From: Candidatus Fermentibacteraceae bacterium
Lineage (GTDB): Bacteria > Fermentibacterota > Fermentibacteria > Fermentibacterales > JCC-6
Reading direction: 5' to 3'
Length of the DNA stretch: 64,000 bases
Assembly (NCBI GenBank): GCA_016744855.1
Contig: JADGDO010000014.1
Location: 1 to 64,000, forward strand
Shown: piece after piece, positions 4,459 through 58,179 of the stretch
Numbering within the stretch: position 1 is the stretch's first letter
Layout of the letters: every line of letters begins with the position of its first letter
Notes under the pieces: generated by a model
What the model was told of the DNA's origin: nothing
The model's input: the letters and a program-made list of their open reading frames with translations, nothing else
Databases searched by the model: none
Made by a program: the position numbers and the translations under genes

Positions 4459-6375
4459 ATGACTGGGACATTTTTACTGGTGCTTGCACTTTGCTCTGCA
4501 GATCCTGAAGTGTATCTTGACTTTACCTCATTGACGAGAGAGATGATTCCAACATTTCTTATTACGGAGTTCGATCACCCCGAGAACCCTGTGGATATTC
4601 TCAATTATGATATTTCGCTGGAGGTTTTTCTGCAGTTGCATGAGATCTCGGGGATAACTGAAATTGAGATGACTGCTCCCACGACGTCTATTACAGATAT
4701 TCGGCTGGACCTGCGGCAGCTTACTGCTGATTCAGTCTGGGATTCCACTGGAGATTTATCTTACTTTCAGCAGGATGACTCAATATTCATAACACTCGGT
4801 GAAGCTCTAAATCCCGGCGATACAACACATGTAAGCATCGCATATGGAGGAGCTCCCTACCACGAGGGCTGGGGTGGATTCTGGTTTGCCGGCAATGTTC
4901 TAGCTTATCATATTGGTGTTGGGGTCAGCACAGAGGGGCAGACAATGGGGAAGTGTATGTTTCCCTGCTGGGATCACCAGAACGACAAAGCAACCTTTGA
5001 TTTCCATATCACCTGTGATGAGGACATGTATGCGGTTGCAAACGGAGATTCAGCCGGGGTAAGTTTCAGCGGTGGAAAGGCAACATACAACTGGACAATA
5101 GATCAGCAGATGCCCACCTATCTTGTTGCTCTGAATGTCGGAGACTATGAAGTGCTTCACGACTCCACTGATGCCCGAATTTACTACTATGTCTATTCAT
5201 GGGATGTCGATGATGCCCTTGCGAGTTTCGTTAATGTGGATGAAATGATGGCAAACCTGGAAAGCATATTCGGACCCTATCCCTGGGATACTCGGTTCAG
5301 TTTAGTGGAGACTCCCAAGGGAGATATGGAGCATGTTTCTCATGTGACCCATACAGCTGCAGCTGTAAACGGTAATACTAACTACGACTGGCTTATTGCA
5401 CACGAGATGACACACCATTGGTGGGGCTGTTGTGTTACAATGGCAGACTGGCAGCACATCTGGTTGAAAGAAGGCTTCGCAACCATAGGGGAAGCCCTTT
5501 GGATGGAGACTTACGGCCAGGAATCATATGACGATTACATGATTAACAATATTATGAAACCTTACCTGCAAAGTGGTGAGATTTTCCCTATATCCAATCC
5601 TCAAACTCCTGCTGAAGTGTTCAGTGCAACAACCTATGACAAGGCTGGAGCTGTGCTTCATATGCTTCGTTATGTACTGGGAGATGAGGACTTCTTTGGT
5701 GCAGTTAACTATTACTTCGACAACCACATGTTTGGTCTTGTCTGGACTGATGATTTCCGTGATGATCTGGAGAGCTACCTAGGCACTGATATAGATTGGT
5801 TCTTCGACAAGTGGATACACGGATGGGGTTACCCGATATATGAAATTGAGCATTCGATAGCCCAGGCCGGAGCTACCTGGGAGCTGACAATAGATCTTTC
5901 TCAGATTCAAACAACTGAAACAATTTTTGAAATGCCACTTGAATTCCTGGTTCATGGTGTTGCTTCGGATACTGTTGTTGTTGTGTGGAATGACCAGCAG
6001 ACTCAGAGTGAAACATATACGATCTCCTTTGAGCCTGATTCAGTTACTTTCGATCCATACCACCACATTCTATGCGGTAATATTCTTCTAGGTATTGAAT
6101 CCCCTATTCTGCCCCCGGGGGGTGTCAGTACTGCATATCTAGGGCCAAATCCAGCAAGATCAAACAGCAATGCCCTGCTTACATGGCCTGGAACTGAACA
6201 AAACATCATAGAAGCCATTATTTTCGATCTTAATGGAAGAGCTGTTTTAACTCAACATCTAGTCCCGGGCAACAGGAATATTATCCTAACCGATTTACCT
6301 GCTTCCACATATCTCCTGCAGCTCACTACCAACACAAACATAAAACAGACTACAAAACTCGTGGTTCTAGAGTAG
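4459..6375 (+). CDS. Secreted M1-family zinc aminopeptidase with T9SS-type sorting domain
   Basis: A 638-residue exported metallopeptidase expected to remove N-terminal residues from peptides. A short hydrophobic leader (MTGTFLLVLALCSA) precedes an M1 N-terminal beta domain. The gluzincin site is complete: His315-Glu316-x-x-His319 (HEMTHHWWG) with third ligand Glu338 (LKEGF), exactly 18 residues on. The usual GxMEN substrate loop appears as GDMEHVSH, so the Asn is replaced by His. The last 80 residues (GPNPARSNSNALLTW, then FDLNGRAVLTQ, then LPASTYLLQL and a final KLVVLE) look like a type IX secretion type-A sorting domain, implying secretion across the outer membrane and cleavage of the tail. 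Start: ATG after GGGGGGA. It is monocistronic as far as can be seen. Confidence 0.88.
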   Translation: MTGTFLLVLALCSADPEVYLDFTSLTREMIPTFLITEFDHPENPVDILNYDISLEVFLQLHEISGITEIEMTAPTTSITDIRLDLRQLTADSVWDSTGDLSYFQQDDSIFITLGEALNPGDTTHVSIAYGGAPYHEGWGGFWFAGNVLAYHIGVGVSTEGQTMGKCMFPCWDHQNDKATFDFHITCDEDMYAVANGDSAGVSFSGGKATYNWTIDQQMPTYLVALNVGDYEVLHDSTDARIYYYVYSWDVDDALASFVNVDEMMANLESIFGPYPWDTRFSLVETPKGDMEHVSHVTHTAAAVNGNTNYDWLIAHEMTHHWWGCCVTMADWQHIWLKEGFATIGEALWMETYGQESYDDYMINNIMKPYLQSGEIFPISNPQTPAEVFSATTYDKAGAVLHMLRYVLGDEDFFGAVNYYFDNHMFGLVWTDDFRDDLESYLGTDIDWFFDKWIHGWGYPIYEIEHSIAQAGATWELTIDLSQIQTTETIFEMPLEFLVHGVASDTVVVVWNDQQTQSETYTISFEPDSVTFDPYHHILCGNILLGIESPILPPGGVSTAYLGPNPARSNSNALLTWPGTEQNIIEAIIFDLNGRAVLTQHLVPGNRNIILTDLPASTYLLQLTTNTNIKQTTKLVVLE

Positions 6376-6660
6376 GTGCTATCAATTTCACATCTGCCAC
6401 ACCGATAAATGATTATGAAGCCTACATAGGCAGATTCGGCATAGAAAGAGGATATGTGGATATCCCCGCAGCTCCTTCTTCATTCTATGTTGATGAGTTT
6501 AACCAGATTGATGACACAACAGGTGCCATTCGACTCAGGTGGGATCATTCCTCCTCCGATGTTTATACCAATAATGTATATCGGGAGAATAGCAATGATA
6601 CCAGAACTCTTCTCTGGGGAACTCCCAACAACGCCTGTTTTGTGGCTGTGCGCATTATGA
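6376..6660 (+). pseudogene. Orphan fragment of a secreted FN3-like protein
   Basis: Immediately after the peptidase stop, in another frame, an open stretch of about 95 codons reads as plausible protein: it includes NDYEAYIGRFGIERGYVDIP, then APSSFYVDEFNQ and IRLRWDHSSSDVYTNNVYRE. The last part resembles the start of a fibronectin type III domain with its W and Y positions. There is no ribosome-binding site or matching start codon, and it runs into the 3' end of the opposite-strand gene at 6655. I read it as the remnant of a deleted gene or a frame-shifted extension of the neighbour. Chance coding remains possible. Confidence 0.35.
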
Positions 6661-9600
6661 GAGGAGTTTTTTCAGGTCTTCGAAGATTTGGATTATTGGT
6701 GAGTTGAGAATAGCTTCTTTGTGGTGGTTGTTTTCAATGCTGTTGATGTGGTTTTGGAACAGTTTTTCAGCTTTTTCGAAGATATCAATGCTTTCTGCTT
6801 TTTTGTTCTGCTGGTGCAGGCATTTTGCCAGGTAGGTCAGTATTTCCATTTCCTGAATTGACGGGTTTTCATCTATTGTGGAAGCCGCAGTTTGCAGCTT
6901 CTCTTCGGCTTCTTTTAGGGCTGTTTCTCTGTCTATAGAGGGGTTTTTTAGTCGCTCCACACCTCTGAAGCCTTGCAGTAATCTCATTTTTGAAGCGCTC
7001 AGGTCTTTTATATTTTCATCGGCTTCAAGCTGACTCAGCTTCATATCCGCTTCTTCGAACTCCTCAATATCGATTAGCATACCGATAAGGTCTATTCTTG
7101 TGGTCATGGCCATATTGATAATACCCAGTTCCTCAGCAAGATCAATTGATTTTATGAAGCTGCTTTTAGCATTGCTGTGATTTTTATCTTCGACATCCAG
7201 CACTGCTAGATAGTAGTATGCCCATACGGAGAACACTTTGATACCGGTGGTTTCCACCATTTTGAGAACTTGTTGACAATAGTCTCTGGCAAGGCTGTAC
7301 TGCATAGCTGAGTAGTGCGTTTCACAAAGGTTCAAGTATGCAACCATTATTGAATGAGTATCACCTACCTCTGTTACAATTTTCAGGCCATCATTCAGGA
7401 GGTTGATCCTAGTTTCATACTTACTGGTTAAGCGCAAGGATACGGCAGTGTTAAGCAGAGCCCTTCCCTCTCCGACCTTATCGGAAAGCTCTCTGAATAG
7501 GGCAATAGCTTTTAAACACATTTCTGTGTTCTCCGACTGAGGTCTTTTTTCCTGAGCGATGATGCCATACATCATATAGTAATCTGCCAGCAGCTCTCTT
7601 CTTGTATTGCTTTCCTCAATCGCCTGTATCATTGAAAACGCTTCATCCATTAGTTTGAGGGCTTTATCTCCCGGGTCCAGCAGGTCCTGCATGTAGGCTC
7701 TTTGAATGACCGATTGCACAGTTTTTTTGCCTAGCGGAAGAAGTTGCATGGCTTCGTCATAAAGGCTGAGGGCAGTGCTATAGTCACCTTTTTTAGCATG
7801 GAGCAGTGCCTCCTGGAAACGAGCATTCCCAATCTCTTCATCGTTTACGGCTAATGTTTCGGCTTCTTTTAGAACAAGTAATGCTTTGTCATAGTCTGTA
7901 AAAAGGCTGCTTAAAGTTCCCAGCTCTAATCTTGCCAGGTAAGCTTCATCTTTGTTCTCTTTAGAAATCTCGGCAAAGAGCATGTACTTATTGAGCCAGT
8001 GGTTAGCTTCCATAATTGCCCCCTTTGCTTTTGCCTGTTTTGCGGTCTTGAGAGCAAAGTGCCTGGCTTTTTCTGAGTTCAGGCTGTCGCAGTAGTGGTG
8101 TGCAGTTAATGGAATCACTATTTCGTTTCCACCGTCGACCATCTCTTCATAATACTGGCCGAATCTTGACTGGAGCGATTTACGGATTCCATGAGAGAGC
8201 TCATGGTAAAGAAAGGTACGCATGGTGTCGTGGATGAAGTGGTACTTCAGGGATGAGCCCAGTAGCTTTTCCTGAACTAGTCCATTTTTCAGAGGCTTCT
8301 CCAGAGTTCTTGCGATCTCCAGCTGGTCTCTACGGAGAACTGCACTGATAGGTTCCAGCGAGAAGGCTCCCCCTGGCATCATTGAACCAACGCAGAGTAC
8401 CTCTTTTTCGTCGCCGGTTAGGTCTTTTAGTCTTTCTTCCATCAGCGCAGATATTGAAGCAGGTAAAGACATGTCATCAGGAATCTGATATGCCCATCCT
8501 CCGTCTACTGCCAGCTCAATTGCTCCGCTGTTCCTGAGAGAGAGTAAAAGCTCTTTGAGATAGAGTGGATTACCACTGCACTTTTTAACCAGTCGTTGCA
8601 GAATGTCTTTGGGAATCTTCGGATCCCGGAGGGCAAACATAACCATGTGTCTGGTGTATTCTTCATCAAGAGCTTTGAGAGAGATTAACTTGTATCTGAC
8701 AATGCCGGACAGGTCTCTTAACTTTTTTTCAATTTCCGGGAAGCTCTCTGTTGGAGCTCTCATGGTGGCAAGGCAGAGAATTGGCACATTTACTGTTGCT
8801 CTAGCGAGGTATGCAAGCAGATCGAAGTCATTTTCTGAAATCCAGTGGAGGTTGTCTGCGGTGAAAATTACAGGTTGTCTGGATGCTATCCATTTAATGA
8901 TCTGTGTGATTTCTGAAAACATTCTCAGTCTGAGTACACTGTCTTTATCTGTTTTTGGTGCCGGTGAGGTGCTCAGAGTGAGGTTCTGAAACAACTCAGC
9001 TGTTTCCGGCAGCAGATCCGGCAGAGAGCTCCGAAGATCGAACAGTTCATCTTCCGAAAGTGTGCAGAGATATTCAGTAAGGGGATCAGTTATAAGCAGG
9101 TACGGTCTGTTTGTACCAAGTTCATCACATCTCGTGCTCAATATTTTGCAGTTCTTGAAGCTGGAGTAGTGTTCAAGTTCATTAGCAAGCCTGGTCTTAC
9201 CTACTCCCGGCTCACCGGCAATAACTACAAAGTTTCCCCTTCCGGTAACTGTATCGTTAAGAGTATTACGAAGCTCTGTGAGTTCTTCGTTTCGACCCAC
9301 AAAGTGTTCGAATGTTATGCTTTTCTTCGTCTTCTCTTCTTTGTGATCTTCGTAGAATGAAACTCTCCCACGACCACCTTTCTTTGCCTGGTACAGGGCC
9401 TTATCTGCCCGTTTCAGGATGTCTGCAAGATGGTTGTCCTCGGATTTGCTTCCTGCTACTCCTATGGAAAGGCCAATTTCCATTCCTTCAGGGAATACTT
9501 CACGCTGAAGAGCCTGCAGAATTCGCTCACCCTGGTTTACTGCTTTAAGCTGTTCTGTGTCCGGCATGACAAACACAAATTCATCACCACCGTAGCGGAT

Positions 9601-9837
9601 AAGACTATCTGTGCTTCTTTTGTTTCTTGAAAGAATATTGGCAACTCTTCTAATAACACTGTCACCTTCGAGGTGTCCGAACACATCATTAACAAGCTTG
9701 AAATGATCAATGTCTATGATTGCAATGGACCATGTCCCGGCCTCATCTACTTTGTTCGAGAACCGGTAATCCAGTTCATCCATGATGCCACGGGTATGAA
9801 GACCGGTTAGGTGATCCAGTTTGTCTTTAGTTGTCAT
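6655..9837 (-). CDS. GGDEF - AAA-type ATPase - TPR signalling protein
   Basis: A 1060-residue cytoplasmic protein combining three modules. Residues 1-165 are a diguanylate cyclase domain with intact GGDEF (83-87, RYGGDEF) and an intact RxxD inhibitory site (RSTD, 74-77), so it should make and sense cyclic-di-GMP. From about 178 a VGRNEEL box starts an AAA-16/STAND-like ATPase with Walker A GEPGVGKT (208-215), as in regulators such as MalT and in adenylate-cyclase-type fusions. From about 600 to the end there are repeated TPR-like helices (ALSLYDEAMQLLPLG, SIDIFEKAEKLF). There are no membrane segments. Start: ATG after a GGGGGGG run. It is more usual for a kinase or nucleotide cyclase to occupy the catalytic slot of such ATPase-TPR proteins. 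Confidence 0.85.
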   Translation of the reverse strand: MTTKDKLDHLTGLHTRGIMDELDYRFSNKVDEAGTWSIAIIDIDHFKLVNDVFGHLEGDSVIRRVANILSRNKRSTDSLIRYGGDEFVFVMPDTEQLKAVNQGERILQALQREVFPEGMEIGLSIGVAGSKSEDNHLADILKRADKALYQAKKGGRGRVSFYEDHKEEKTKKSITFEHFVGRNEELTELRNTLNDTVTGRGNFVVIAGEPGVGKTRLANELEHYSSFKNCKILSTRCDELGTNRPYLLITDPLTEYLCTLSEDELFDLRSSLPDLLPETAELFQNLTLSTSPAPKTDKDSVLRLRMFSEITQIIKWIASRQPVIFTADNLHWISENDFDLLAYLARATVNVPILCLATMRAPTESFPEIEKKLRDLSGIVRYKLISLKALDEEYTRHMVMFALRDPKIPKDILQRLVKKCSGNPLYLKELLLSLRNSGAIELAVDGGWAYQIPDDMSLPASISALMEERLKDLTGDEKEVLCVGSMMPGGAFSLEPISAVLRRDQLEIARTLEKPLKNGLVQEKLLGSSLKYHFIHDTMRTFLYHELSHGIRKSLQSRFGQYYEEMVDGGNEIVIPLTAHHYCDSLNSEKARHFALKTAKQAKAKGAIMEANHWLNKYMLFAEISKENKDEAYLARLELGTLSSLFTDYDKALLVLKEAETLAVNDEEIGNARFQEALLHAKKGDYSTALSLYDEAMQLLPLGKKTVQSVIQRAYMQDLLDPGDKALKLMDEAFSMIQAIEESNTRRELLADYYMMYGIIAQEKRPQSENTEMCLKAIALFRELSDKVGEGRALLNTAVSLRLTSKYETRINLLNDGLKIVTEVGDTHSIMVAYLNLCETHYSAMQYSLARDYCQQVLKMVETTGIKVFSVWAYYYLAVLDVEDKNHSNAKSSFIKSIDLAEELGIINMAMTTRIDLIGMLIDIEEFEEADMKLSQLEADENIKDLSASKMRLLQGFRGVERLKNPSIDRETALKEAEEKLQTAASTIDENPSIQEMEILTYLAKCLHQQNKKAESIDIFEKAEKLFQNHINSIENNHHKEAILNSPIIQIFEDLKKLLS

Positions 9838-28955: not shown

Positions 28956-30242
28956 TCAGCGAACCACAGTTACCCGTGTACTCGATATTTCTCCGTTGAA
29001 GTCTGCCTTGAGCAGATAAACTCCCTGAGGCAGTTCAGAGATATCTGCTGTGCACTCAAGCAGACCCTGAGGTGCATTGCCGGACCATATTTTCTTTACT
29101 GTTCTTCCATCGAGACTGATGATTGAGACTTCCGCCTGAACCGGGAAGCCTGATGACAGGAAGAAAGAAAGGGAGGAAGAAGCCGGGTTCTGAAGAATTC
29201 CGACTCTGTGTCTGATGGGGGTATATCCCTGACCGCTTTCCTCTTCAAAACCGTTGTCGTCAACTCCCAGGCAGTAGTAAACGTACTCGGAATAGTCTCC
29301 TGAAAGAATATCAACCACGCCGTCATTATTCCAATCGAAAAGGAAAGGTTTTGTGTCGGGATCTATCATAAGAAGGTCACCTCCACCTTCTCTTTGAAGC
29401 ATCTCCGGTGAACCGAATTCAGGGTTATCATCTGTTCCTGTGTTTTCGAAGTACCAGAAACCTTGAGGATCTACGGAAAGACCTTCTCCAAGGATTAGAT
29501 CCTTCTTGCCATCGTTATTTAGATCATAAACACATGGCTGAGTTCTCCACATTTCAATGGGAACCGGGCCTGTGCCCGGGTCGTAACTTATGTAGTCTTC
29601 AGTTTCAAACAAGTATGCCTCTGGAGTACCCGTGTTGATAAATAAACGTACCCGCTTTGGTGATACCTCCGGATGTCCCTCGTTGCATACTATCAGGTCA
29701 AGAAGACCGTCATTGTTCCAGTCAGTTACAAATGGAGCCGAGTTCTGACCAACCCATAAAGAGTCACCGTTGGACATTCTGATAACAGAATCTGCACCGA
29801 GAGTGATGGGATCTTCTGATGTTCTCGGAAAGAAGTGAACGAGGCCCAGTCTTTCTCCCATGATAAGATCAAGCATTCCGTCGTTGTTGAAATCCACAAC
29901 CTGTGGACTTGTAGCACCTGTGCATCAACCAGCTTCCATCGCTATGTACTCTCCATCACCCTGCATCCATTCAAAAGTATTGAAAACCGGGATATCAGTA
30001 TCGCTTTCGTTTTCGTAGAGAGCCACATTGGCAAACTCACTATTGGCATAACCAACAAAGCAACCAAGAATCAAATCAGGTTTCCCATCTGCATTCCAGT
30101 CACCCATCCAGGGGTTCAGGTGACCGAAAATCTGGGTGATGGGTTCACCTGCACAATTAATCTGGACCGGATCTTGGAAAACCGGTATGTCGCAGAATGC
30201 TGCTACACCCAGTAGAAGAACAATCGTAACTGCAAGCCTCAT
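28956..30242 (-). CDS. Secreted FG-GAP/VCBS-repeat protein interrupted by an in-frame TGA
   Basis: One reading frame of 429 codons, broken at codon 106 by TGA (complement of 29925-29927). Both halves clearly belong together: the upstream part has a signal peptide (MRLAVTIVLLLGVAAFCD) and the FG-GAP repeat DWNADGKPDLILG; the downstream part continues in the same frame with DFNNDGMLDLIMGE, DWNNDGLLDLIVC, DLNNDGKKDLILGE and DWNNDGVVDILSGD, each a calcium-binding beta-propeller blade. The C-terminus (NPASSSLSFFLSSG, SLDGRTVKKIW, LPQGVYLLKADF) resembles a type IX sorting domain. It has a strong promoter at 30278-30306. Either a nonsense mutation, a sequencing error or a recoded codon explains the TGA; a hairpin starts 14 bases after it. 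Confidence 0.8.
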
Positions 30243-52845: not shown

Positions 52846-52875
52846 AAAGGGGAGGAGCAAATGCTCCTCCCCTTT
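52846..52875. terminator. Bidirectional terminator
   Basis: AAAGGGGAGGAGC pairs with GCTCCTCCCCTTT around an AAAT loop, between convergent valS (plus) and the first propeller-like protein (minus). The plus-strand side is followed by CTCTTT and the minus side by TTTTTCTT, so both directions can terminate. Confidence 0.85.
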
Positions 52876-52892: not shown

Positions 52893-53744
52893 CTAGAAAG
52901 ATGTCTTGATGGAACCCCAGCTTGTACGGCTAAGTGATGTAAGCTCAAAGCTGAATTCGGCAAGATGGTAGGCGTTGCTGGCATCCTGGTATGTCCAGAA
53001 CATGGTGTCTGTTACATTGCTGTAAGAAAGACCGTAAGAAGCACCGATTCCTGAGACTGGGCAGGGAGCTGAGCCTATGTAGCTCATTGTGCTTCCATCC
53101 CACTCGTAGAAATAGATATTGTGAGTGTTGTAGGTTGTAACAGCAACGCCTGTGTTTCCATTGTATGGGAATACAGCGAGACCACTTGGCTGATCTGTTA
53201 CTTCTGGAATTGCTACGTTCTCCTGACCAACACCGGGGCTGAAGCGCCAGAGACCACCGTTGGTTGCATTTGTTGCCCAGTAGTTTGTACCATCAAAGTC
53301 CATACCTCTTGCGCTAGTACCTGCAGGATTTGGAGTGCTGGTGCTCCAGGAAGCTCCGAAATCTTCCGTGTAGTAAAGATTGGCATCCTGCCAGTCGTTG
53401 GTGTAGTAGGTGTCAGTATCTGGGTCGTTGTTCCAGGCCATACCGAAGCAGGATGCATTCTCAGTGTCAAGAGTAAGAGTTCCAAGTGGTGCACCGGTAA
53501 GGTCATAAGCCTGAATCTGCATTTCAGTTTTCTCTACAGTCAGAATGTAATTCCCTGTAGTCGATTCAAAGATATCGATTCCAAGAGAAGCGTTAGGAAC
53601 GGTCCAGTCATTGACAATAGCAAGAGTCATATCCAGATCATTTGCCTGGACAGGATTTACTGCGCTACGTATTTCAGTGCAACCGTCAATATCGGTGGCA
53701 AAAGCCATCGATGCAATAACAAAGACAAGCATAAGAAATTTCAT
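52893..53744 (-). CDS. Secreted propeller-like protein, paralogue 1 of 4
   Basis: A 283-residue exported protein. A signal peptide (MKFLMLVFVIASMAFA) is followed by repeated beta strands with labelled blocks shared by four neighbouring paralogues: IVNDWT near the start, MAWNNDPDTDTYYTND, NLYYTEDFGASWSTS, GMDFDGTNYWATN, GLAVFPYNGNTGVAVTTYNT, YFYEWDGS and a closing SLSRTSWGSIKTSF. The YTEDFGASW block is like the Asp-box of BNR/sialidase propellers (S/T-x-D-x-G-x-x-W). No enzyme motif is visible. The conserved C-terminal 14 residues ending in Phe could be a sorting or assembly signal. It has a leader hairpin at 53765-53778 and a likely promoter at 53788-53815. Confidence 0.72.
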   Translation of the reverse strand: MKFLMLVFVIASMAFATDIDGCTEIRSAVNPVQANDLDMTLAIVNDWTVPNASLGIDIFESTTGNYILTVEKTEMQIQAYDLTGAPLGTLTLDTENASCFGMAWNNDPDTDTYYTNDWQDANLYYTEDFGASWSTSTPNPAGTSARGMDFDGTNYWATNATNGGLWRFSPGVGQENVAIPEVTDQPSGLAVFPYNGNTGVAVTTYNTHNIYFYEWDGSTMSYIGSAPCPVSGIGASYGLSYSNVTDTMFWTYQDASNAYHLAEFSFELTSLSRTSWGSIKTSF

Positions 53745-53764
53745 TATTTCTCCCCCTTTTTTAA

Positions 53765-53778
53765 CTGAAGAATTTCAG
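53765..53778 (-). promoter_or_regulatory. Leader hairpin of paralogue 1
   Basis: CTGAA-ATTC-TTCAG on the minus strand, followed by TTAAAAAAGGGGGA and the ATG. Similar hairpins precede paralogues 3 and 4 at the same distance from a G-rich ribosome-binding site. Confidence 0.5.
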
Positions 53779-53787
53779 CTAACATTT

Positions 53788-53815
53788 AACATAACCGATT
53801 TAGCACCTATGTCAA
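53788..53815 (-). promoter_or_regulatory. Candidate promoter of paralogue 1
   Basis: A perfect TTGACA (complement of 53810-53815) is followed after 16 bases by TATGTT (complement of 53788-53793). Confidence 0.5.
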
Positions 53816-53841
53816 AACTAACATTCCCCGCCCCGCTCGTC

Positions 53842-54654
53842 TTAAAAGAATACCTTGTAAAGAGTAAGACAACCCAGAAGAGTTGTGGCAATGCCAATTA
53901 TCAGAGTAAATTTTTCAGGATTGATTTTCTTTACTAGAGCAGCACTGATAGGGACCCCGGCAAATGCGCCTATCAAAAGGGGTGGGGCTATGCTCCAATC
54001 TATTTCTGCTCCCATTATCAGGTATGTCGTTACACCAATAAAACAGGTGAAGCTTTCCGCCATGCTGGTAATGGCAATAGCGCTTTTCCCTTTAACTCCT
54101 GAAAGAATCTGCCCGCTTGTTACCAGAGGACCGTATCCCCCACCCGAAAGTCCTTTGTTGAATGCTGCCACAACCCCGAGAGTGGTTACTTTGTACCAGC
54201 TGAACTTAGAGCGACTCTTGTGTTTGAAGAGAATGATAAGTCCCATTGCAAAAACAATTACTCCGATTATTGGTTTCAGATAATTCTGCAGATTAACAGC
54301 AAAAACAGCAGCACCTACAGCTCCGAGAAGGCTGCATATCCCCAGAACAAAAGCAATCTTGGAGTCGTTGGATTTGGGCAGGTAACCTAGCTTCCCCATT
54401 TTCTTCACGATACGGTGCTCTCTGTCATTATGAAAATTAAAAAATGCATTCCCTGCTCTGTGGTGAGCGAAAGCGGAGAATGCACCGGTAATCAATTCAG
54501 AAAGCAGTATTGCGGGAACAACCTGCATTGGCTCGTATCCCATAAAAAGAAGTACAGGGGTAAGTGTTGTTCCGTAGCCCATTCCAAGAGTGGAATCAAC
54601 CAGTTCGCAGAAAAATGCCATACCCAAGAGAAGTAAGAGAGGCTCCCATTCCAT
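53842..54654 (-). CDS. TauE/SafE (TSUP) family membrane permease
   Basis: A 270-residue inner-membrane protein with about eight hydrophobic segments. The TSUP motif appears twice: DSTLGMGYGTTLTPVLLFMG at the N-terminal half and NKGLSGGGYGPLVTSGQIL in the second half, reflecting the internal duplication. Family members export sulfite, sulfoacetate or related small organosulfur anions; the substrate here is unknown. It is encoded between propeller paralogues and next to a DUF5343-like gene on the same strand, 24 bases after that gene. It has no obvious sulfur-metabolism neighbour. Confidence 0.87.
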   Translation of the reverse strand: MEWEPLLLLLGMAFFCELVDSTLGMGYGTTLTPVLLFMGYEPMQVVPAILLSELITGAFSAFAHHRAGNAFFNFHNDREHRIVKKMGKLGYLPKSNDSKIAFVLGICSLLGAVGAAVFAVNLQNYLKPIIGVIVFAMGLIILFKHKSRSKFSWYKVTTLGVVAAFNKGLSGGGYGPLVTSGQILSGVKGKSAIAITSMAESFTCFIGVTTYLIMGAEIDWSIAPPLLIGAFAGVPISAALVKKINPEKFTLIIGIATTLLGCLTLYKVFF

Positions 54655-54678
54655 TCCTGTTTTCCTCTGCCTCTGCCT

Positions 54679-55320
54679 CTACATAGTCTTTTTCAGAATA
54701 GTTTTAATCATAGCAAGCATTTCAGCATCCATTGCAGAAGCTGGTATAGTGATGTTCAGAGAAAGCTCACCGGAAAGGCCGCTTATTCCGGGTGCCGGTT
54801 CCTCTGACACATCGGGAAGTTCAGCCTTTGGAGCTGCGGGTATATCATTAGTGTCAGGTGCCGGTATAGCGGGAGTAGCTTTTGTCTGCTTGTCGTTCCT
54901 GTGAAAATCTGCCAAATCGGTGAGTACCTGAAGGGTCAGAACCATATAGGCTGATTCTGTTTCGGTAACACCGGTTTCTTTTTTGAAGAAAGCCATAAGT
55001 AGCTTGCTGTCTGTTGATCCCTGCTCTTCCTGATATTGGAATGCACTCGCATAAGCTTTCTCTATTGAAGGAGAAAGAATCTCTTTGAATTTCTCATCGG
55101 CAACATCCCTGATTGCCTTCCATTGAGCAGTAGGAGAGAGGTTATTGTCTATGAATCCCAGAAAGAAGAGAAGTTCCAGAAGCTTAACATCAGTCTGCCT
55201 TCTGAAACCAATAGAAGCCAGGTAGTCAGAGGTAATTTTGTCAGGCTCTTCTTTCGATCGAACGTTACGGAAAAGCAATTCAATTGATCCGGGATCTCTT
55301 ACGGCAGGATATGTTTTCAT
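54679..55320 (-). CDS. DUF5343-like protein
   Basis: A 213-residue soluble protein. ATG 55320 is used because GAGGAG lies eight bases upstream; the 13-codon-longer frame is unsupported. Residues 1-130 resemble DUF5343, a helical domain found in bacterial and archaeal proteins of unknown role (KITSDYLASIGFRRQTDVKL, then LLFFLGFIDNNLSPTAQW). A Pro/Ala-rich linker follows (ATPAIPAPDTNDIPAAPKAE), then a short C-terminal domain with LSLNITIPASAMDAEML. DUF5343-type proteins sometimes sit near defence genes, but no such genes are present here. It precedes the TauE/SafE gene by 24 bases. Functional inference is not justified. Confidence 0.55.
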   Translation of the reverse strand: MKTYPAVRDPGSIELLFRNVRSKEEPDKITSDYLASIGFRRQTDVKLLELLFFLGFIDNNLSPTAQWKAIRDVADEKFKEILSPSIEKAYASAFQYQEEQGSTDSKLLMAFFKKETGVTETESAYMVLTLQVLTDLADFHRNDKQTKATPAIPAPDTNDIPAAPKAELPDVSEEPAPGISGLSGELSLNITIPASAMDAEMLAMIKTILKKTM

Positions 55321-55369
55321 TTCAAACTCCTCTATTGATGTTACGTGCAAGATATTCATTTACAGAGCG

Positions 55370-55403
55370 AAAAAAAAGAGGGGAGGATTATTCCTCGCCC
55401 TCT
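55370..55403 (-). terminator. Terminator of paralogue 2
   Basis: On the minus strand AGAGGGCGAGGA pairs with TCCTCCCCTCT (one mismatch and one bulge) and is followed by TTTTTTTT. It lies just downstream of the paralogue 2 stop and before the DUF5343-like gene. Confidence 0.85.
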
Positions 55404-55426
55404 TCCTGCCGTAAGCAGTAATAAAT

Positions 55427-56221
55427 TCAGAAACTCGCTTTTATACTGCCCCAGCTGAATTGCTGGAGAGATTGAACGGAAAAGGAAATCTCAGCCAGAT
55501 GATACTCGTTGGATCCTCTTTTGTATGTCCAGAAGATGTTTCCATTGTCAGCAGCGGCCAGACCGAATGATGTAGTAATATCTGTTACTGGGCAGTCTGC
55601 TGATCCAAGAAAACTCACACTTGACCCATCCCACTGGTAGAAGTAGAGCTGATGAGTAGTGTAGGCGGTTACGGCAATTCCAAGATTGCTTTCGTAAGGA
55701 AACACTGTCAAACCGCTTGGAGGAGTGGGGATCTCTTCGGTGTTATAGAGCTGCTGACTTTCACCTGGCTGGAAACGCCACAACCCTCCACTCTCATTAC
55801 TCCAATAGTCGACTCCATCAAAATCGAGACCTCTTCCGGTACCTCCAGAGGGGTTAATGGAAGTAGTCCAGGTTGTTCCTGAATCAACTGAACAGTATAA
55901 GTTTCCCAGGACCATATCATCGGTATAGAGAACTTCACCATCTGTTGATTCATTCCAGACTACACCCCATGGATACTCGTTATCAGAATCAAGAGGAAAA
56001 GTTTCTCCTGTCGGTTGACCTGTAACTGGATCGTATACTCTGATAAGAGAACTCTGACCGCATACTGCCAGAAGACGCGAAGAAGAACCCGACTGAGAAT
56101 AATCCACTCCGAGGACTTGATCTTTAGTGATCCAGTCATTTACTACAACCAGAGAAATTTCTGTTCTACCAGCAGCGTAAGCTAGTGATGTCACAAATAA
56201 AAAAATAAACAACTGCTTCAT
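55427..56221 (-). CDS. Secreted propeller-like protein, paralogue 2 of 4 (most divergent)
   Basis: A 264-residue exported protein, shorter and more divergent than its neighbours. Signal peptide MKQLFIFLFVTSLAYA. It keeps the family order: VVNDWI, VRVYDPVTGQPTGETFPLD, VVWNESTDGEVLYTDDMV, LYCSVDSGTTWTT (an Asp-box-like block), GLDFDGVDYWSNE, GLTVFPYESNLGIAVTAYTT, YFYQWDGS, and SLQQFSWGSIKASF at the end. It lacks the DPDTDTYY block and the leader hairpin of the others, and its ribosome-binding site is GAGGAAAG. It has its own terminator at 55370-55403. The divergence suggests an older duplication. Confidence 0.72.
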   Translation of the reverse strand: MKQLFIFLFVTSLAYAAGRTEISLVVVNDWITKDQVLGVDYSQSGSSSRLLAVCGQSSLIRVYDPVTGQPTGETFPLDSDNEYPWGVVWNESTDGEVLYTDDMVLGNLYCSVDSGTTWTTSINPSGGTGRGLDFDGVDYWSNESGGLWRFQPGESQQLYNTEEIPTPPSGLTVFPYESNLGIAVTAYTTHQLYFYQWDGSSVSFLGSADCPVTDITTSFGLAAADNGNIFWTYKRGSNEYHLAEISFSVQSLQQFSWGSIKASF

Positions 56222-56277
56222 TCACGGCCTTTCCTCAGAGAGATTGCTATTTATTGTTCCCGTAAATATAGCAGTAC

Positions 56278-56305
56278 AAAAAAAGGGAGGGGCATAGCCC
56301 CCCCC
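56278..56305 (-). terminator. Terminator of paralogue 3
   Basis: On the minus strand GGGGGGGCTATGCCCCTCCC folds into a G/C-rich hairpin followed by TTTTTTT (complement of 56278-56284), just after the paralogue 3 stop at 56322. Confidence 0.85.
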
Positions 56306-56321
56306 TGATAATTCTTGAAAT

Positions 56322-57164
56322 CTAGAAGCTGGTTTTGATTGAACCCCAGCTTGAACGCGACAGAGAGGTGAGGTCGAAGGAGAATTCAGCGAGATGATAG
56401 CTGGAGCCGTCATTGTATGACCAGTAGATGTTGCCGTTCTGTTCGCAGTATGCAAGTCCGTAGGATGAACTGACAGTTGAAGCAGGGCAAGCTGCGTTAC
56501 CGATAAATGTCATGGAAGATCCATCCCACTCGTAGAAGTAAATCTGGAGGGGAGTATAACAGGCTACAGCAAGACCAAGATTGCCACCGTAAGGGAATAC
56601 GGTGAGGCCGCTTGGATTACCGGTAACTTCAGGAGTCGCGATGTTGGACTGTCCTACGCCCGGCTGGAAACGCCATACGCCGCCGCCTTGACCATTCGTG
56701 CACCAGTAGTCTGTTCCATCAAAATCCATTCCTCTAGCAGAATTTCCAGATGGGTTGGTCGCTGTTGTCCAGCTTGCGCCGAAATCTTCGGTGTAGTAAA
56801 GATTGGTCGTTGACCAGCAGTTTGTGTAGTAGGTGTCGGTATCCGGATCGTTGTTCCATGCGAGGCCGAAACAGTTAGTGTTTGCAGCGTCAAGAGGAAT
56901 TGAAGACTGAACTCCACCTGCTTGATCGTAGGCCTGAATAACATCCAGATTGTTATCAGCACCAAGAATGTATACTTCGGAACCATCTTCGAAAACATCA
57001 AGACCCAGAGCTTTTTCAGCGAGTGTCCAGTCATTAACGATTGTAAGAGTTATCGCATCACTGCCAGAACCATGAGGATCAACGCTGATGCTTGTGCCGA
57101 AGTCTCCGTCATTGTTTGCAAAGGCAAAAGCCACAACAACAAGAATTAAAAACAAATATCTCAT
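56322..57164 (-). CDS. Secreted propeller-like protein, paralogue 3 of 4
   Basis: A 280-residue exported protein very similar to paralogues 1 and 4. Signal peptide MRYLFLILVVVAFAFA. Shared blocks: TIVNDWTLAEKALGLDVF, VIQAYDQAGGVQ, FGLAWNNDPDTDTYYTN, LYYTEDFGASWTTAT, RGMDFDGTDYWCTN, WRFQPGVGQSN, GLTVFPYGGNLGLAVA, YFYEWDGSSMTFIGNA, and SLSRSSWGSIKTSF at the C-terminus. Asp-box-like YTEDFGASW suggests a BNR-type blade. Single gene with a leader hairpin (57183-57198), RBS AAAGGGGAG and its own terminator. Ligand unknown. Confidence 0.72.
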   Translation of the reverse strand: MRYLFLILVVVAFAFANNDGDFGTSISVDPHGSGSDAITLTIVNDWTLAEKALGLDVFEDGSEVYILGADNNLDVIQAYDQAGGVQSSIPLDAANTNCFGLAWNNDPDTDTYYTNCWSTTNLYYTEDFGASWTTATNPSGNSARGMDFDGTDYWCTNGQGGGVWRFQPGVGQSNIATPEVTGNPSGLTVFPYGGNLGLAVACYTPLQIYFYEWDGSSMTFIGNAACPASTVSSSYGLAYCEQNGNIYWSYNDGSSYHLAEFSFDLTSLSRSSWGSIKTSF

Positions 57165-57182
57165 AACACTCCCCTTTTATGA

Positions 57183-57198
57183 GCAGAACTATTTCTGC
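57183..57198 (-). promoter_or_regulatory. Leader hairpin of paralogue 3
   Basis: GCAGAA-ATAG-TTCTGC on the minus strand, followed by TCATAAAAGGGGAG and the ATG. The stem sequence differs from the CTGAA/TTCAG stem of paralogue 1, but pairing and position are kept. Confidence 0.5.
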
Positions 57199-57289
57199 AA
57201 CCTTTGACTATTTAATATTTCATTGACAAAGTCAAATATTTGTAGAGTTCTGTCTGCATCCCTCTTTCAGTGTGGGTGTACAATTGCAG

Positions 57290-57318
57290 AAAGGGGGAGG
57301 GGCAATACCCCTCCCTCC
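57290..57318 (-). terminator. Candidate terminator of paralogue 4
   Basis: On the minus strand GGAGGGAGGGG-TATTG-CCCCTCCCCC, followed by TTTCTGC, forms a G/C-rich hairpin after the paralogue 4 stop at 57334. The T-tract is short, so it may be leaky. Confidence 0.65.
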
Positions 57319-57333
57319 GATATCAGAAAAGCT

Positions 57334-58179
57334 TTAGAAGCTGGTTTTGATTGAAGCCCAGCTTGAACGTGTGAGAGAGGTGATTTCGAAAGAGAGTTCA
57401 GCAAGGTGATATTCACTGGTGCCTACCCAGTAGCTCCAGAAGAGGTTGCCGTTTGCACCATAAGCAAGACCCATTGAATAGCCGATACCGCTTGCAGGGC
57501 AAGCAGCAGAGCCTAAAAATGTCATTGCGGAGCCGTCCCAATCGTAGAAGTAGATGCTGTGGGTATTGTAGCAAGTTACAGCAATGCCGAGGTTGCTTTC
57601 GTGTGGGAATACTGTTAGTCCGCTTGGCTGGTCTGCAACTTCTGGAATTGTGACGGTCGCTGTTCCGACACCCGGCTGGAAGCGCAGAAGGCCGCCACCG
57701 GTACCATTTGTTGTCCAGTAGTCTGTTCCATCAAATGCCATACCTCTGGAATTACTGCCACCTGGTGCTGGTGTTGTAGTCCAGCTGGTACCGAAGTCCT
57801 CTGTGTAGTAAAGAACAGTCTGCTGGAAATCGTTCACGTAGTATGTGTCGGTATCCGGATCGTTGTTCCAGGCAAGACCGAATGCGGAGGTGTTGGCAGC
57901 ATCAAGAGTCATGGTGCCTGTAGGAGCACCTGTTGCAGGGTCATAAGCCTGAATGATGTCATCAGTGTTGTTGACAGCAAGAACGTAGTCTCCTGCTCCA
58001 TCGAAAAAATCAATACCAAGAATCTGATCAGCCAGTGTCCAATCGTTAACAATGGTGAGTGTAACAGCGTCAGAACCGGATTCATGTGGGTTGATAGTCG
58101 TACTGGTCTCAGTACAACCATGATTCCCGCTGGCGAAAGCCAGTGATACTGTAATCAACAGTAAAAATAGATATTTCAT
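57334..58179 (-). CDS. Secreted propeller-like protein, paralogue 4 of 4
   Basis: A 281-residue exported protein. Signal peptide MKYLFLLLITVSLAFA. Blocks in family order: TIVNDWTLADQILGIDFF, DIIQAYDPATGAPTGTMTLD, FGLAWNNDPDTDTYYVND, LYYTEDFGTSWTT, RGMAFDGTDYWTTN, LRFQPGVGTATVTIPE, GLTVFPHESNLGIAVTCYNT, YFYDWDGSAMTFLGSA, and SLTRSSWASIKTSF at the end. It is clearly a tandem relative of paralogues 1 and 3. Leader hairpin at 58207-58220 and a candidate promoter at 58231-58258. Probably the upstream-most gene of the series, each with its own transcription unit. Confidence 0.72.
   Translation of the reverse strand: MKYLFLLLITVSLAFASGNHGCTETSTTINPHESGSDAVTLTIVNDWTLADQILGIDFFDGAGDYVLAVNNTDDIIQAYDPATGAPTGTMTLDAANTSAFGLAWNNDPDTDTYYVNDFQQTVLYYTEDFGTSWTTTPAPGGSNSRGMAFDGTDYWTTNGTGGGLLRFQPGVGTATVTIPEVADQPSGLTVFPHESNLGIAVTCYNTHSIYFYDWDGSAMTFLGSAACPASGIGYSMGLAYGANGNLFWSYWVGTSEYHLAELSFEITSLTRSSWASIKTSF

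Follow-up and report, generated by a model that had tools for sequence, protein, structure and literature searches.

Hundreds of unrelated exported proteins from several bacterial lineages end in a short peptide, which we term the “WG tag” (A-[LV]-E-x-x-[ST]-W-[GA]-x-[IV]-K-x-x-[FY], in some cases followed by a single Arg). On a homologous protein body, the tag takes the place of a type IX secretion system (T9SS) domain. It is probably an undescribed address label for the destination of the protein. On sequence evidence, we lean toward a novel kind of sorting signal, a very short one at the C-terminus of proteins exported through Sec that serves as a minimal substitute for the T9SS domain. The fuller claim, that the tag directs localization and that the T9SS is its reader, would in our estimate fall just short of an even call.

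Four propeller proteins and their common tail

The whole stretch of DNA that was analyzed (64,000 nucleotides, here “the window”) encodes four exported propeller paralogs on its minus strand: paralog 1 (52893..53744, 283 aa, ending SLSRTSWGSIKTSF), paralog 2 (55427..56221, 264 aa, ending SLQQFSWGSIKASF), paralog 3 (56322..57164, 280 aa, ending SLSRSSWGSIKTSF), and paralog 4 (57334..58179, 281 aa, ending SLTRSSWASIKTSF). The C-terminal tag takes up the last 14 codons before the stop of paralog 1 (52896..52937) and lies at 55430..55471, 56325..56366, and 57337..57378 in paralogs 2, 3, and 4, in the last of these as a WA form. A first-pass annotation of this DNA had described four exported paralogs, and rightly so: each has an N-terminal signal sequence and they are full-length homologs, paralogs 2–4 sharing 47–60% identity with paralog 1 in a 285-column alignment. 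What it had read as about ten separate shared blocks is instead global homology, and the copies are not contiguous: two unrelated genes, one TauE/SafE-like (53842-54654) and one DUF5343 (54679-55359), separate copies 1 and 2.

Its finer observations held up well. The Asp-box-like motif is present in all four proteins (YTEDFGxSW, but SVDSGTTW in copy 2), the near-invariant tail reads SL-x-x-x-SW[GA]SIK[TA]SF throughout, and a purine-rich sequence resembling a ribosome-binding site precedes each start. Each gene also appears to have its own terminator, with a G+C-rich hairpin and T run visible by eye 3' of every stop. An automatic scan calls the terminator-like hairpins after paralog 3 (56284..56306) and paralog 2 (55383..55396); those after paralog 1 (52849..52872) and paralog 4 (57293..57318, with a short T run) were seen by eye and not called by the scan, all four lying on the minus strand. 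The family has expanded by duplication in the four window copies, which might, as the annotation suggested, reflect selection for surface diversity, and a more distant fifth paralog is found in the same genome (G000:C15:1527-2381). This genome belongs to the uncultured Candidatus Fermentibacterota; the closest named relatives of the four proteins come from Candidatus Sabulitectum and Aegiribacteria MAGs.

Structure prediction, which the annotation had proposed as a check, sets the tail apart from the fold. An AlphaFold2 model of paralog 4, built with 20 sequences, has a mean pLDDT of 83.8 (about 82–95 in the core blocks). Its confident core spans about residues 39-266, the last core strand being 256-266; tail residues 271-281 lie outside this core and are drawn as a short separate helix with pLDDT <50. 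Foldseek matches the core to six-bladed propellers (E down to 9e-9, TM-score about 0.5–0.6), including Pizza6, NHL, the PknD extracellular domain, and glutaminyl cyclase, and we are confident in assigning the window bodies a predicted six-bladed-propeller-like fold. They differ from NHL-like six-bladed propellers in that none of the four has any Pfam family above its cut-off. The annotation had also allowed for a tail that simply belongs to the final propeller strand and occurs on no other proteins. This fails on both counts: the model places it beyond that strand, and unrelated proteins carry it.

Distribution and shape of the tag

The genome search that the annotation had suggested was run on the home genome (G000) with the pattern W-x-x-I-K-x-x-[FY]-stop and the reversed pattern as control. 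It returned 17 C-terminal matches against 1–2 control matches, and reversed-pattern controls rule out chance matches as an explanation. All 17 proteins have S/T before the W and G/A after it, neither of which the pattern demanded. A clear N-terminal export signal is found in 15; of the two exceptions, one (L021, on C74) begins with a hydrophobic stretch but lacks a good start codon; the other, a gene on C19, is broken by an in-frame TGA. Apart from the propeller group, a C13 pair, and a C19/C96 pair, the tagged bodies look unrelated, and the genes, whose neighborhoods were read by eye, are single, scattered over the genome, and without a recurrent partner. With the stop left out of the pattern, all six matches were C-terminal and the control gave none, which is an unbiased, though small, test of C-terminal placement.

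All 42 genomes of the Fermentibacterota phylum carry the F-ended tag, with 493 matches in total (1–28 per genome) and a single control match. Outside the phylum, 343 genomes were searched and a single lineage stood out. In the phylum of that lineage, here the second phylum, 6 of 14 genomes have the F-ended tag, with up to 26 each. A variant with a terminal Arg, the Arg form ([ST]-W-[GA]-x-[IVL]-K-x-x-[FY]-R-stop), was found in 14 other genomes from eight families, with 6–55 matches per genome and 0 control matches there, and once or twice in further scattered genomes. Nearly all of the Arg-form proteins that we read have an N-terminal hydrophobic signal, the few without one being fragments. 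Tagged proteins can also be locally expanded, as in the array of nine tag genes in about 22 kb at G016:C5:5818-27357 (L159, L160), which arose by duplication.

Most of the single-copy cases that we read represent one small exported protein, and the rest are different exported proteins. The small protein (L254-L263; about 130–160 residues, Fn3-like in appearance, ending TWGSIKA[ML]FR) occurs at eight loci in several families, and no relative of it was found on plasmids. That the single-copy TWGSIKAMFR matches are a housekeeping protein was considered and rejected, those read being small exported proteins. Clustering the neighbors of single-copy tag genes revealed no recurrent partner gene; at two loci of the same family (L261, L262) the single tag gene adjoins a gene whose beginning is patatin-like, an arrangement seen nowhere else.

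The bodies behind the tag are diverse. Tagged proteins of at least 90 residues were stripped of their last 18 residues and compared by BLASTP (E 1e-3), which sorted 168 of them into 46 body clusters, between which distant homology may still exist at that threshold. Five clusters contain both endings. The domains recognized include lamin-tail, NHL, beta-helix, CBM96, Big_5, and plastocyanin-like. With one representative per cluster, the consensus is A-[VL]-E-x-x-[ST]-W-G-x-[IV]-K-[AS]-[LM]-[FY], in which W and K were fixed by the design of the search, as was S/T in later searches, whereas the upstream A, L/V, and E and the A/S after K are conserved though never demanded. The tag is essentially confined to C-termini: 190 of 195 distinct [ST]W[GA]x[IV]K contexts are separated from the end by exactly 3 or 4 residues, a proportion inflated by loci that were mostly fetched by their C-terminal motif.

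A crude signal-peptide test, based on hydrophobicity and eye rather than a trained predictor and with a poor background set, was passed by 96 of 109 complete F-form ORFs, and an in-frame TGA accounts for several of the failures. No Pfam or NCBIfam model matches at the tail. Among 35 tagged proteins scanned against NCBIfam, no listed family was a tail model matching the C-terminus, although HMMER filters could miss so short a motif; the sole weak NF058595 match lies at residues 114-135, not on the tail. The motif was not found printed in the literature searched. Two related lipoprotein-like proteins (L265:9958-10563 and L145:10514-11077) have tag-like tails (SWGYVKWIFR and TWSRVKWIFYEE), which would extend the tag to lipoproteins.

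Ten tagged ORFs that fail the signal-peptide test are preceded by an in-frame upstream half with a signal peptide and a single stop between, and in 10 of 10 this stop is TGA. Its contexts include W-TGA-S-Y-C (UxxC, thioredoxin-like) and C-G-G-TGA (CxxU), and a candidate hairpin lies downstream of the TGA in each of the ten. Most of the tested genomes of both phyla have a strong tRNA-Sec match, the home genome included (68 bits). The exported proteins with an in-frame TGA (L149:8190-8999 on G000:C19, L089, L054, L057, L157, L161, L109, L122, L123, and L124), with conserved TGA places and a hairpin downstream, are probably exported selenoproteins.

Type IX secretion and the possible readers of the tag

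The tail had been described from the start as unlike the T9SS domain found elsewhere in the window, and it bears no resemblance to the type A-like C-termini of two window proteins, encoded at 4459-6375 (plus strand) and near 28956-29897 (minus strand). TIGR04183 matches neither the four window proteins nor any of 35 tagged proteins (NCBIfam). Also in the window, at 6655-9837 on the minus strand, is a gene for a protein that fuses a GGDEF domain, an AAA_16 ATPase, and TPR repeats.

The same body can carry either ending. One propeller protein, selenoprotein-like in its single in-frame TGA at a shared C-TGA-G-S site, carries the tag at its C-terminus in G000 (L149) and G013 (L089); its homologs from two other genomes (L057 and L054), with the TGA at that site too, have a type A-like T9SS domain there. 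Swap pairs of lower similarity are the beta-helix proteins L205/L252 with L075, adjacent paralogs in L208, and the FG-GAP proteins L231/L239 with ORFs in L089 and L036. Tag and T9SS domain were never found on one protein among the fetched loci.

SprA scores above its profile cut-off in 40 of the 42 Fermentibacterota genomes, and in the home genome the TIGR04189 (SprA) match reaches 416.7 bits (cut-off 200), with neighboring matches in frame. Type A domains are present in all genomes of both phyla and at loci sampled from the Arg-form lineages; PorV-family matches number 5–14 per genome in the ten genomes tested. The best such match in the home genome (G000:C107:33491-34420) contains one internal TAA, which marks either a pseudogene or an assembly error. 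The T9SS alone does not imply the tag, because some genomes of the second phylum have SprA and type A domains yet lack the F form. Genome G014 (98% complete), of the Fermentibacterota phylum, has no good SprA match, seemingly lacks the PorV ortholog of its relatives, and has apparently lost the canonical T9SS. It keeps two tags, one F-form and one Arg-form; this is far fewer than its relatives have, but the genome is also small.

The first guess, of a signal distinct from the T9SS domain, gains support from the position of the tail outside the core and its presence on many unrelated exported proteins. Three observations argue for a role in sorting: one tag serves many different exported proteins, it occurs on bodies related to proteins with other C-terminal signals (an NHL protein that matches the ScyF PEP-CTERM family), and it is exchanged for a T9SS domain in the in-frame-TGA propeller. 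This last exchange favors a short alternative to the T9SS domain. A tagged protein would be exported through Sec by its N-terminal signal peptide, as its sequence suggests; an envelope receptor would then recognize the tag, whatever the body, and the protein would be delivered where T9SS cargo goes, either onto the cell surface or out of the cell. As reader, the best candidate would be the type IX translocon acting via a PorV-like shuttle, which would make the tag a minimal counterpart of the type A and type B domains. The final 22 residues of a T9SS domain are enough for secretion in P. gingivalis (PMC5445135), and the various T9SS domains have specialized shuttles of their own (PMC12618676). 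If our reading is right, hundreds of unannotated small proteins in uncultured lineages (Candidatus Fermentibacterota and others) could at once be labelled as exported cargo of a single route, and a 14-residue peptide would allow tests of what a C-terminal sorting system minimally recognizes.

The strongest competitor, which we consider possible but clearly the less likely, is that the tag belongs to an unrecognized sorting pathway that works beside the T9SS in several deep lineages. Here, a dedicated non-T9SS receptor or enzyme of the envelope would read it as a sorting or retention signal, with a logic like that of PEP-CTERM and exosortase. In its favor, no T9SS domain is nearly as short as the motif, whose sequence specificity is strong, and both the T9SS-bearing genomes without the F form and the apparently SprA-less G014, with its two tags, fit such a pathway. 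Against it, the same body is tagged in some genomes and ends in a T9SS domain in others, every tag lineage sampled has type A domains, and no recurrent neighbor gene presents itself as the partner, which could however be encoded elsewhere in the genome.

Less probable again is a peptide that has no role in export and binds a membrane or anchors the protein at the surface, for instance as a short helix. Interfacial helices often contain W, I, F/Y, and K, and AlphaFold2 does draw a short C-terminal helix there. That helix is nevertheless of very low confidence, and the helical hydrophobic moment of the tails shows no excess (mean 0.258 vs. 0.26 ± 0.07 for column-shuffled tails). The tightly held G/A, S/T, and I/V positions suggest a specific partner instead, and some homologs carry short extensions beyond the motif or substitutions within it (e.g., SWGQIKADFE, SWSTIKSLYR).

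We think it improbable that a periplasmic chaperone or protease binds the tag as a signal for folding or quality control. Degrons and chaperone sites are classically found in C-terminal peptides, but the tag occurs only in certain lineages and on only some of the exported proteins, and a T9SS domain replaces it in homologs; sorting fits both facts better. Functionless likeness, through homology or the copying of ends between genes, can be set aside almost entirely: duplication did produce the four window copies and the G016 array, yet the 46 body clusters share no detectable homology, several deep lineages carry the tag, and the motif is conserved amid variable flanking sequence. A sorting signal, with the T9SS as its most likely reader, stays our preferred reading.

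Comparison with known C-terminal signals

The beta-signal of outer-membrane beta-barrels resembles the F form of the tag in its aromatic last residue; however, the tagged bodies are soluble folds, and the tag does not have the alternating hydrophobic pattern. PEP-CTERM, GlyGly-CTERM, LPXTG, and similar signals are likewise short and C-terminal and are found on many unrelated exported proteins, but they combine a transmembrane segment with a basic tail, and the tag has neither. Read from their sequence, the last ~30 residues of the tagged proteins contain no long hydrophobic stretch. One tagged protein (L248, by its NHL body) does match NF035926, the ScyF family, which is named for its PEP-CTERM-type end.

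Known T9SS signals are folded and measure about 100 residues (type A) or 150–235 residues (type B) (PMC12618676), as opposed to about 14 for the tag. The type B domain (TIGR04131) provides a precedent as an alternative C-terminal signal in T9SS bacteria with its own shuttle (PMC12618676), although it often lies beside a porP/sprF-like gene and tag genes have no recurrent neighbor. The type A domain (TIGR04183) differs in its length (about 70–100 residues in our comparison), in its Ig-like fold, and in its motif (YPNP...GxYxxRL...K vs. [ST]W[GA]x[IV]Kxx[FY]). It is nonetheless, like the tag, a C-terminal element of Sec-exported proteins, is shared by many different bodies in the same genomes, and ends homologs of a tagged protein.
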